From Rhodocyclaceae bacterium (GTDB lineage: Bacteria; Pseudomonadota; Gammaproteobacteria; Burkholderiales; Rhodocyclaceae): 45,240 bases of DNA. The position numbers were made by a program, and so were the translations under genes. The stretch is taken from assembly GCA_003963315.1 (NCBI GenBank), contig RXJP01000039.1:37616-82855 (forward strand), in the 5' to 3' direction. Numbering within the stretch: the stretch's first letter is position 1; every line of letters begins with the position of its first letter. The notes under the pieces were generated by a model. The model was given only the letters and a program-made list of their open reading frames with translations. It had not been told where the DNA came from and made no database searches. Below are positions 20,435 to 24,397 of the stretch, piece after piece.

Positions 20435-20489
20435 ATGGGGTTTCTGGAGAGGGATGATTGTGGTTGATTAGATCACTCGGCCCCCTTTG

Positions 20490-20556
20490 GTTCAACGTTT
20501 GAATTCACCGGACTGCGCGGCTTTTCGCGCAGGTCTGCTCGAACGAAAGGTTCGGC
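20490..20556 (-). other. attC site ending cassette D (67 bp)
   Basis: On the minus strand R'' is GCCGAAC (20556-20550) and R' is GTTGAAC (20496-20490). The body has a partly paired stem around CTGCGCG and CGCGCAG with an AAAAGC loop. Its right arm, CAGTCCGGTGAATTCAAAC, is identical over 19 bases to that of the attC ending cassette A, a sign of shared origin. Confidence 0.9.
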
Positions 20557-20557
20557 G

Positions 20558-21517
20558 TCAGTCGTCTCTGTCTGCTTGCCATTTGTGGTAGCCGCAGAGG
20601 CCCCCGCCATGTTGATCTTCTGGCCCAAGTGCTGCACCACATACGCCGCACTTCTCATAGCTGAGCGAAGCTTGGCACAGTAGACAGAAACCTGACTCGA
20701 CATGAAACGACTCTTCACCGCACTCGTGGCAATAATCCAGTGGTGGATCGCCACCATCAGTCATTGCTATGTATGCATCGGCTGCGAAAGCCTCAGCGAT
20801 TGCGTCTCCAATCGTATCTTCAAAGTTGGAAGTCTTTCCACAAGACGTGCATAGAAACTCAAGTGTCGTGAGGTCGGAAGTCTCGGGGTTGGTCGGCTTC
20901 ACAAGTGGAGAGCGACAGTGAATGCAACAGACTTCTGCAACGACCGCATCGTAGATTGGGTGTGGCCAATCAATTCTTGAGAGCTCAGCACGGCAGTCTT
21001 GAAGTTGCTTCTCATACACCGAAGCAACGTTCAGAAGCGTTTGCCAGGTCTTTTCCCCAAGCAGATCAAGCGGCTCATGACCAAGTGCGGTGGCAATGAA
21101 GGCTTGGAGAACCACAAGAGCATCGGCCAAAACGCTCTGAACGGTGGCAGCCGATGCTGTTGTGTAGTAGTGCTCAAGGTCGTTGCGCAATCGAACAAGC
21201 GCATCGAACCGATCCCATTCAACCGAGACATGCAAAGATTCAAAACGATCCTTGATGTGCTGCACATCGACGGTCTTGCGGCCGGCACCAACGAACGTAA
21301 TGGACCCATCCGGGCGAAGCGACGGACGCAACCGCTCCTTCAAGAGAACTTCGTCTGAGTCAGGCGGCGAAAGTCGTCGAAGTTTCTCCTTGAACAAAAG
21401 AAGTACGCCAGCCGTAATGTTCCGCACTGCGGATAGACCTCGATTTGGGTCGGAGGCTTCGTAATCCTCTACCCCGGCCTGAATTGCAGATACTGCGTTT
21501 GCGAGAAGCGGATTCAT
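20558..21517 (-). CDS. Cassette D protein: HEPN-like domain plus C-terminal zinc ribbons
   Basis: A 319-residue protein I cannot assign to a named family. The N-terminal 160 residues are helical and contain RLRNDLEHYY near 109-118, an R-N-x3-H (RX4H) motif as in the catalytic core of HEPN ribonucleases. The C-terminal half is a chain of paired cysteines: CCIHC, FLCTSCG, YCHECGE, FCLLC and KCGVCGAALG, suggesting two or three zinc ribbons. A HEPN domain with zinc ribbons would fit an RNA-targeting toxin or defence effector, but this is inference. The ATG at 21517 lies four bases after the R' box of the shortened attC, as cassette genes usually do. The stop abuts the attC of its own cassette. 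Confidence 0.82.
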   Translation of the reverse strand: MNPLLANAVSAIQAGVEDYEASDPNRGLSAVRNITAGVLLLFKEKLRRLSPPDSDEVLLKERLRPSLRPDGSITFVGAGRKTVDVQHIKDRFESLHVSVEWDRFDALVRLRNDLEHYYTTASAATVQSVLADALVVLQAFIATALGHEPLDLLGEKTWQTLLNVASVYEKQLQDCRAELSRIDWPHPIYDAVVAEVCCIHCRSPLVKPTNPETSDLTTLEFLCTSCGKTSNFEDTIGDAIAEAFAADAYIAMTDGGDPPLDYCHECGEESFHVESGFCLLCQASLSYEKCGVCGAALGPEDQHGGGLCGYHKWQADRDD

Positions 21518-21520
21518 GAC

Positions 21521-21539
21521 GCCGAACGCAGGGTTAGCT
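21521..21539 (-). other. Collapsed attC between cassettes C and D (19 bp)
   Basis: On the minus strand R'' AGCTAAC (21539-21533) is followed by only CCTGC and then R' GTTCGGC (21527-21521). The other three sites are 67-74 bp. Both core boxes match their own cassettes, so this is a genuine site that has lost its folded middle. CCTGC also follows R'' in the attC of cassette B. Without the stem this site should not recombine. Confidence 0.85.
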
Positions 21540-21540
21540 C

Positions 21541-22227
21541 TCACTTGGCACGACGAGACCATAGGCCAGAAAAGGCACTTGCCGGTAAGTGAGACCGTTG
21601 CTGTTGAGCCACCAAAGTTTTGCGCAGCAGTTCAGAAAATCGTTTGCGGTCTTTTTGTGTGACCTTCTTGTGCCGCATCAGCTTCATCATTTCGTTTGCG
21701 ACAGCGGGGTTGTGGACCACCGAATCCGCCACAATTTCCTCAGCTATAGCTGCGCGAACTTCTTTGGTGAGCCCATCCATACCATTACGATATTCACGTG
21801 CCGAGCCAATTAACTCTCCAAGCTCGTTATCGGAGAGTTCGAGCATTGGACTGTAGTCTCTCGCCGGAAGTCTTCCTGCGGCAACATCCTCGCGGACGCG
21901 GTTAGCGACTGACTTAACCAGATCGTAGGCGGCGTTTCCTACGACACCGCTTAAAGCAGCAAGCATTACCCACGCAAAGGCTTCGCCGTCAAATAGTAAT
22001 GAGGGCTTCGGCGGATTGTTGCTCTCAGCATAGGCGTCTTCATAATAGCGACGATATTGGACCCCGTAGTAATACACCTCGGCGGCATATTCATAGAGAC
22101 GCAGAATGGCCTTGGGATCTAGCTCAGTTCCGCATTCGCTACAACGTGCACCTTGCTCCTCAGGAAAATCAATTACCTCCCCACATGAAAGGCAGAGGGC
22201 GCGCGACGGCTCGGGAAAGTGCGACAT
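21541..22227 (-). CDS. Cassette C protein: zinc ribbon plus hydrophobic segment, unknown function
   Basis: A 228-residue protein not recognised as any named family. Residues 12-34 hold CLSCGEVIDFPEEQGARCSEC, a zinc ribbon. A Tyr-rich stretch follows (YEYAAEVYYYGVQYRRYYED). Residues around 85-110 (AWVMLAALSGVVGNAAYDLV) are one membrane helix or a buried hydrophobic helix. The C-terminal half is charged and helical, with HKKVTQKDRKRFSELLRKTL. The ATG at 22227 lies ten bases inside the cassette boundary. Because the attC after it is collapsed, it may travel with the cassette D gene, which also carries zinc ribbons; the two may work together. Confidence 0.8.
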   Translation of the reverse strand: MSHFPEPSRALCLSCGEVIDFPEEQGARCSECGTELDPKAILRLYEYAAEVYYYGVQYRRYYEDAYAESNNPPKPSLLFDGEAFAWVMLAALSGVVGNAAYDLVKSVANRVREDVAAGRLPARDYSPMLELSDNELGELIGSAREYRNGMDGLTKEVRAAIAEEIVADSVVHNPAVANEMMKLMRHKKVTQKDRKRFSELLRKTLVAQQQRSHLPASAFSGLWSRRAK

Positions 22228-22236
22228 GGTTGTGAG

Positions 22237-22310
22237 AGCTAACGTTCAAGGTCAGGGGCCTGGCGCGGCTTTATGCGCCAGGTCCCCTCCCCTGCACCGC
22301 AGGGTTAGCC
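22237..22310 (-). other. attC site ending cassette B (74 bp)
   Basis: On the minus strand R'' GGCTAAC (22310-22304) and R' GTTAGCT (22243-22237) flank a strong stem, ACCTGGCGC with GCGCCAGG, extended by AGGGG with CCCCT and closed by an AT-rich loop. The stop codon of the cassette B gene lies seven bases before it. Confidence 0.92.
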
Positions 22311-22316
22311 ATCCGA

Positions 22317-23030
22317 TTATCGAAGCACATATCGGCCAGGGCCCACGGAATGAAGAAATGAATGTTTCGACCACTTCCCTGTCTCGGTGTTGTCGCAATA
22401 GTCGGCCGGAAGAACCGATCCTTCATTAATGCCACGTTCCTTCGCTAACCGAAGAATGTCCTTTCGTCTAATTATCTTGTCCCCTGCGGCTAGCTCCTGG
22501 CATATCAGCCGAATACGCTCTGGGACGGATAGCTCACTTAACGGGTTGCGATTGGGCGGCGGGGCATTCGACGGCGCTTGCTTTCGTATCCGCGGCTGCG
22601 GTGCAGGCTTCGTTGTTTCTGCGGGCGTAAGAATTTCGTCAATGAACCGGTGAATCTTTAGACGTTCATCGTCGATGTCAGCCTCTCCATAGCGGTAGCC
22701 TTTCAGATCATTGAGTAGTCTGACCGAGCGGCGCAACTTGTGAAGAAGTAGCTTCTCGTCTTCGCGTCTGTCATGGGTTTCCTTGAACTTCACAAGGATT
22801 CGGGCGCCGCGCTTTCGCAAGTACTTGACGGCTTCTCCGACCTTGAAGTCGGTCGATGCCGAGAAGTTCGCCGACATATAGTCGCCAAAGCGCCCAACAT
22901 GGCGTGAGCTTTCACCAACGTAGAACGGAACTGGTTCAGTTGCGTTGTCGGTGAGATAGTGAAAGACATAGACGATGTCCCGGTGCTGCGGGAATTCCAT
23001 TTCCTGAAAGGCAGAGAGGTCGATCGTCAT
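22317..23030 (-). CDS. Cassette B protein: GIY-YIG-like nuclease domain with C-terminal winged-helix-like region
   Basis: A 237-residue protein. The first 110 residues fit a GIY-YIG-type fold: IVYVFHYL as the first strand, VPFYVGESSRHVGRFGDY as the YIG strand and conserved Arg helix, then ARILVKFKETHDRREDEKLL with a Glu in the position of the metal ligand, and LLND at the end. The match is by pattern only and the family is divergent. A Pro-rich linker near 140-165 leads to a C-terminal domain (SVPERIRLICQELAAGDKII ending GPGRYVLR) that looks like the winged helices appended to restriction-type nucleases. The ATG at 23030 is 12 bases inside the cassette. The likely role is nucleic-acid cleavage, possibly defence; not proven. 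Confidence 0.78.
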   Translation of the reverse strand: MTIDLSAFQEMEFPQHRDIVYVFHYLTDNATEPVPFYVGESSRHVGRFGDYMSANFSASTDFKVGEAVKYLRKRGARILVKFKETHDRREDEKLLLHKLRRSVRLLNDLKGYRYGEADIDDERLKIHRFIDEILTPAETTKPAPQPRIRKQAPSNAPPPNRNPLSELSVPERIRLICQELAAGDKIIRRKDILRLAKERGINEGSVLPADYCDNTETGKWSKHSFLHSVGPGRYVLR

Positions 23031-24099: not shown

Positions 24100-24113
24100 G
24101 CCCAACGTTAAAT
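24100..24113 (-). other. attI-like or terminal R' core site at the head of the array
   Basis: On the minus strand ATTTAAC (24113-24107) directly precedes GTTGGGC (24106-24100). The R' box matches the R'' of cassette A exactly, so cassette A was inserted here. The upstream box resembles the inverse L box of a simple attI site. No attC-like stem lies upstream, which favours attI over a further attC, but no integrase is attached. Confidence 0.6.
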
Positions 24114-24397
24114 GTGGGGCCTAAAAATGACGGAATATTTTCCGTCATGATGGAAAATCCCCATCAATAGGACGCCTAAAACGGGAAACGCAGACGTGAA
24201 ATGTAATGAATTCATGACCATGGCGAAATTTAGTACGTCCTAAAAATGGGCAAATGCGTCAGGTGCCGCAAGGGATGTCCCGGGCATTTAACGATGCCTT
24301 GTGCATGAATGCAAGGGCGATGATCCATTCGCCATGTCTGGCGGATGGGTCGTGAGATCAGGAGTGGGTGGCGCGTGGGCCGCGCCGAGCCGCCGGG
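24107..24397. other. Non-coding stretch between the array head and the MFS gene
   Basis: About 290 AT-richer bases without a credible gene. A perfect hairpin, TGACGGAA with TTCCGTCA (24128-24135 and 24140-24147), lies 20 bases from the array head. A motif CCTAAAA recurs three times near 24120, 24175 and 24239, about 55-65 bases apart. Either could mark a cassette promoter or remnants of an integrase platform; neither is decisive. No integrase remnant was recognised in any frame. Confidence 0.5.

Follow-up and report, generated by a model that had tools for sequence, protein, structure and literature searches.

A fused two-gene integron cassette in a Rhodocyclaceae genome, very probably formed by loss of an attC hairpin between CGTTCG repeats

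Introduction

In 59-base elements, the two outer boxes of a free circular cassette come from one and the same cassette and are usually complementary. The closest described counterparts of the locus reported here are the fused cassettes of class 1 integrons, such as blaGES-1/aacA4 (PMC4670013; PMC8876359, section 2.4.4), in which the stem-loop of the upstream attC has been lost, both reading frames are intact, and a single functional attC follows the second gene, with excision of the pair as a unit expected. For blaGES-1/aacA4, the truncated GES-1 attC was unused, and the pair was excised as a unit and co-transcribed (PMC4670013). Both the fusion of cassettes by attC loss and the view that fused cassettes are a route to operons have already been published (PMC4670013, PMC8876359). 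A second related class is the CALIN of IntegronFinder, a cassette array with no adjoining intI (PMC9024848).

Here, we analyzed a window of 45,240 nucleotides of a Rhodocyclaceae bacterium (assembly GCA_003963315.1, contig RXJP01000039.1) and describe a new example of cassette fusion with an unusually legible deletion scar. The lost stem-loop, the intact reading frames, the single remaining attC and the expected excision of the pair are common to this locus and class 1 fused cassettes. The locus differs from them in four respects: the array is neither a resistance array nor class 1, the remnant of the lost attC retains both outer boxes, the repeat probably behind the deletion can be read from intact relatives, and the pair is known from sequence alone. 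Like a CALIN, the array has no integrase gene beside it (none was found in the window by tblastn). Unlike a CALIN, it has an attI-like site, which is almost identical to the attI of the integron on another contig of this genome.

Organization of the cassette array

The array is encoded on the minus strand and comprises, in order of falling coordinates, attI-like element, cassette 1, attC, cassette 2, attC, cassette 3, 19-bp site, cassette 4 and attC, with a TMEM175-like gene next after the attC of cassette 4. Its features are as follows (fold energies were computed on the bottom strands of the sites, with z scores relative to shuffled sequences):

24104..24350, minus strand: attI-like element with no adjoining integrase gene (93% identity over 56 bp to the attI beside intI on contig C8)
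23057..24085, minus strand: cassette 1 gene (A), open reading frame of 342 aa
23042..23110, minus strand: attC of cassette 1, 69 bp, intact (fold -18.4 kcal/mol, z -4.45)
22317..23030, minus strand: cassette 2 gene (B), open reading frame of 237 aa (weak match to DUF7225, under the Pfam cut-off)
22237..22310, minus strand: attC of cassette 2, 74 bp, intact (fold -22.9 kcal/mol, z -4.73)
21541..22227, minus strand: cassette 3 gene, 228 aa (N-terminal zinc-ribbon-like CxxC pairs; otherwise an orphan)
21521..21539, minus strand: collapsed attC of cassette 3, AGCTAAC CCTGC GTTCGGC
21523..21528, minus strand: CGTTCG, the single surviving copy of a putative 6-bp direct repeat (by comparison with the intact attC family)
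20558..21517, minus strand: cassette 4 gene, 319 aa (HEPN-like domain and CxxC zinc pairs; candidate anti-phage family PDC-S64)
20490..20556, minus strand: attC of cassette 4, 67 bp, intact (the 69-nt stretch 20489-20557 folds at -16.8 kcal/mol, z -2.67)

The initial annotation had described a 19-bp site with both core boxes only five bases apart, where other sites have about 53-60 bases, between two genes presumably identical to the upstream gene (cassette 3) and the downstream gene (cassette 4) listed above. This description was borne out: the minus strand of 21521-21539 reads AGCTAAC-CCTGC-GTTCGGC, and the three other attC sites of the array are 67-74 bp long, close to the spacing given. 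The site starts 1 nt past the stop codon of cassette 3, and its right box begins 10 nt ahead of the start codon of cassette 4.

The boxes themselves are true cassette ends. Each cassette has ends of its own, and the four box pairs are mutually different: cassette 2 starts with GTTAGCC and ends with GGCTAAC, cassette 3 starts with GTTAGCT and ends with AGCTAAC, and cassette 4 starts with GTTCGGC and ends with GCCGAAC, all three pairs being self-complementary at seven of seven positions. The ends of cassette 1 (GTTGGGC at 24100-24106, and GCCCAAC) are also complementary, and its insertion point at the attI-like element is G^TTGGGC. The last box of cassette 4 is the R'' of its attC, the sole attC left to the fused pair, and complements the start of the cassette. 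Coincidence is very unlikely for this pair because the usual RRRY pattern is broken at the same position at both ends. It should be noted that a loose box-N5-box pattern alone would carry no significance. Even for the stricter YYY form, chance alone predicts 0.57 occurrences per window, and the 19-bp site, with its G in AGCTAAC, does not conform to that form. The site is significant because of its paired cassette ends, its position and its match to an intact attC family. No Rfam match was found in the window.

Origin of the five-base spacer

A family of attC sites with the structure RYYYAAC-CCTGCGTTCGAG...CTCCAC-GTTRRRY is present intact in related genomes, and was first recognized downstream of a homolog of cassette 4 in Ca. 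Nitrotoga. A search of 300 relatives with the left-arm pattern gave 21 exact matches. In 17 of these, the complete body was present, as RYYYAAC-CCTGCGTTCGAGGCGACCTGCGCGAAAAGCCGCGCAGGCGCCTCAACTCCAC-GTTRRRY or a close variant. Thus, 17 intact attC sites in related genomes, and one more in Ca. Nitrotoga, combine the left arm YAACCCTGCGTTCGAG with a GTT right box. The right box is degenerate in one further exact match (L140), and the remaining three (L134, L136 and L149) look like chance matches in which the attC body is absent. Within the same genome, a member of the family on contig C42 has one altered box base (AAC changed to ACC), and a related attC with the left arm CTTTCGTTCGAG is found on contig C8. 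On the basis of this family, the CCTGC of the 19-mer is most likely the normal left arm of the attC of cassette 3 and not a random remnant. The attC of cassette 2 (CCTGCGGTG), with a 2-bp CG homology, had also been considered as a model for the attC of cassette 3 and was dropped in favor of the CCTGCGTTCGAG family.

No intact version of the junction between cassettes 3 and 4 was found, and the ancestral site was reconstructed by placing the left box of cassette 3 and the right box of cassette 4 on the family consensus. In the hypothetical intact site, which is 66 bp long, CGTTCG occurs twice, at positions 12 and 59, as a 6-bp direct repeat flanking the hairpin. Deletion between the two copies yields exactly the observed 19-mer, AGCTAACCCTGCGTTCGGC. 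The one other 6-bp repeat in the hypothetical site is internal and would give a different product. Intact sister attC sites share just the 4-bp CGTT at this place, because their right boxes continue with A or G. The GTTCG of the right box is common to the left arm of the family, which makes deletion between these copies the likely route.

The following sequence of events is therewith suggested. Cassettes 3 and 4 would formerly have been independent, each with its own attC, that of cassette 3 belonging to the family with the left arm CCTGCGTTCGAG. When cassette 4, with its unusual first box GTTCGGC, landed behind it, CGTTCG would have come to stand on both sides of the hairpin, and a single deletion of about 47 bp between the 6-bp repeats would have produced the 19-bp remnant. 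The simplest route would be replication slippage across the folded hairpin, and slippage at attC stem-loops has been named as one source of fused cassettes (PMC8876359). We consider it very probable that cassettes 3 and 4 form a fused two-gene cassette whose hairpin was lost by deletion between the CGTTCG repeats. We infer the ancestral site, the slippage route, the loss of function, the joint movement and the coupling of the two genes as parts of this explanation.

The same fused cassette could also have been made by the integrase, had IntI joined the left-arm GTT (CCTGCG^TTCGAG) to the boundary of cassette 4 (G^TTCGGC) and so removed the hairpin. The crossover point of IntI, G^TT, fits both deletion endpoints, and recombination between the two GTTs gives the same product as the repeat deletion. 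Moreover, IntI occasionally acts at secondary GTT sites, with low frequency (PMC3518468), illegitimate integrase recombination is listed as a source of fused cassettes (PMC8876359), and an intI gene is present in the genome. However, an integrase needs just G^TT, so remnants would also be expected at sister sites with the 4-bp repeat. Such remnants (spacer CCTGC followed by a canonical right box) were absent from 399 genomes of the family, which leans weakly against the integrase, the search having low power with few genomes known to carry the CCTGCGTTCGAG attC family. Taken together, an integrase-made deletion appears possible but rather unlikely. Many matches to looser remnants with a TTC spacer were found in 369 genomes of the class, but they did not visibly outnumber those of a reversed-pattern control. 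Repeated occurrences of ACCTAACCATTCGTTAGGT (G788) and GCCTAACATTTCGTTAATT (G620/G736) lay within copies of other repeated sequences and not in cassette arrays.

It is highly improbable that misassembly attached the left arm of one attC to a different cassette: the genome is a draft of 168 contigs and similar attC sites complicate assembly (PMC9024848), but the shared stretch of about 6-10 bp is far below usual assembly k-mers, no exact copy of the family left arm exists in the genome (the nearest has one mismatch), and the junction lies well within an 82.9-kb contig.

Loss of attC function and joint movement

In the folded bottom strand of a functional attC, the R and L boxes are paired and some bases remain extrahelical. 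In the 19-mer, which has neither L boxes nor extrahelical bases, pairing is limited to AAC/GTT and two outer base pairs. Its fold (-1.0 kcal/mol) is no better than those of its own shuffles, compared with -16.8 to -29.9 kcal/mol for full-length sites. Of the upstream attC, 19 bp remain and have no stable fold, against approximately 66 bp in intact members of the family. The remnant would then be unable to form the paired R and L boxes required by the integrase. Excision of the pair would be confined to exchange between the attC of cassette 4 and either the attC of cassette 2 or attI, and would release a single cassette. The absence of L boxes, extrahelical bases and a stable hairpin supports the claim of the initial annotation that attC function was lost and that the two cassettes would now move jointly.

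Published experiments point in the same direction. Removing the extrahelical bases from both attC sites abolished deletion between them, and removing them from one site lowered it to below 1% (PMC2727003), and a 7-bp core site alone gave no precise recombination (PMC3518468). Recombination at the remnant should accordingly fail or be very rare. These data also speak against the reading that the 19-bp site still acts as a weak attC or attG-like site from which the two genes remain separable at low frequency. The AAC/GTT cores are retained, and one truncated aadA1 site was reportedly still used for excision (cited in PMC4670013), but with neither an L box nor extrahelical bases remaining, such residual activity seems improbable.

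The reading frames agree with a fused cassette. Two complete open reading frames in the same orientation (21541-22227 and 20558-21517) lie between the attC of cassette 2 and that of cassette 4, and the start of gene 4 is supported by relatives. That the two genes were once separate cassettes, as had been proposed, also held up: both keep self-complementary ends, and the cassette 4 family occurs elsewhere as a stand-alone cassette, so the pairing is secondary. The distance from the stop codon of gene 3 to the start of gene 4 is 23 nt, with no clear ribosome-binding site. Given this gap and the missing ribosome-binding site, translational coupling of gene 4 with gene 3 is plausible, and loss of an attC hairpin has been reported to favor downstream translation (PMC8876359).

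Proteins encoded by the array

The cassette 4 protein matched the PADLOC profile PDC-S64 (PDLC05058) over residues 2-286 with an E-value of 2.8e-49, which places it, by sequence, in this candidate defence family. R111, E115 and H116 (an RX4H motif), together with several cysteine pairs, were invariant in 28 relatives. Foldseek alone gave no significant PDB match for the protein. In its AlphaFold2 model (pLDDT 90.9), the best solved match of the N-terminal domain was the HEPN protein 2hsb (Z 12.0 over 116 residues at 2.4 A). The next matches were mostly HEPN toxins and AbiV, whereas unrelated receptor rows scored a Z of 6.7 or less. The predicted helical fold and the RX4-6H motif suggest membership of the HEPN superfamily, a match that should be read with the reservations that a common fold shows no activity and that helical bundles can score high. 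No cassette 4 homolog was found in viral contigs.

Stand-alone cassettes of the same gene family, each with an attC after the gene and complementary ends (seven of seven positions), were found at eight loci (L027, L035, L040, L041, L045, L047, L049 and L062). At the stand-alone loci checked, no collapsed attC was seen ahead of the gene in a coarse view of the upstream neighbors. PDC-S64, a HEPN-like candidate defence family, was thus repeatedly integron-borne in diverse bacteria at these eight loci.

By comparison, little could be said of the cassette 3 protein. Its Pfam zinc-ribbon matches were all under the cut-off, its single-sequence structure model (pLDDT 48.5) was too poor for use, and searches of 100 related genomes, genome_contigs and plasmids found no relative of it. 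As none of the collections searched contained a relative, no moved copy of the pair could be sought. The cassette 1 protein matched nothing in Pfam, NCBIfam or PADLOC. This orphan carries FRDKFVHG, an RX4H motif resembling that of HEPN proteins.

attI copies without an integrase gene

One clear integron integrase was found in the genome (G000); its gene adjoins an attI on contig C8. Contigs C94 (the window), C33, C42, C89 and C142 carry at least five further attI-like copies that lack an integrase gene. The positions outside the window are:

C8:2140-2195 (L009): attI with intI, the only one found in the genome
C33:5003-5247 (L195): attI-like copy
C42:6981-7063 (L194): attI-like copy
C89:1259-1462 (L010): attI-like copy
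C142:27020-27061 (L022): attI-like copy

Four of the five copies have a common module of about 220 bp, 66-77% identical where alignable, which contains GACGGAAAANNTTCCGTC and TTTTAGGC.CCACATTTAACGTT and shows no trace of intI. Cassette-like sequence and attC candidates were found behind those four attI-like copies. The integrase-less attI copies may act as platforms on which the single intI works in trans; no published account of such copies was found. A similar copy without intI may exist in a relative (G028, L020). About 2.4 kb past the attI-like site on contig C33, there is a 48-bp attC candidate, CCCCAACCCGGCAGTCGAGCGGGCCGGCCGCTCACTTCTACGTTGGCC, which resembles a longer attC of the C8 array without its terminal hairpin and is a possible case of partial collapse. 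On contig C8, a run of N, masked or unresolved, lies at about 10.0-10.1 kb inside an outer-membrane-efflux-like gene.

A much broader proposal would join these observations: the CCTGCGTTCGAG attC family would be primed to collapse, its left arm carrying CGTT at a set distance from the outer box. A neighbor whose first box lengthens the repeat would allow slippage to delete the hairpin, always with a 19-bp remnant, and the neighbor would thereby decide which cassettes are fused. Here, a candidate HEPN defence gene would in this way have become tied to an orphan zinc-ribbon gene, in an array on one of several attI platforms that lack an integrase gene and depend on a single integrase acting in trans. 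We regard this proposal in its entirety as speculative and improbable.

Implications

Fused cassettes are mainly known from resistance integrons, and the fusion of cassettes 3 and 4 occurred in a non-resistance array. The length of the repeat is set here by the first box of the neighboring cassette, and the likely mechanism can be read from the sequence. Deletion between the CGTTCG repeats predicts that collapse would depend on how well left arm and neighbor match, and that it would proceed without the integrase. Should the cassette 4 protein prove to act in defence, the locus would also illustrate a way for integrons to assemble two-gene defence units out of single cassettes.
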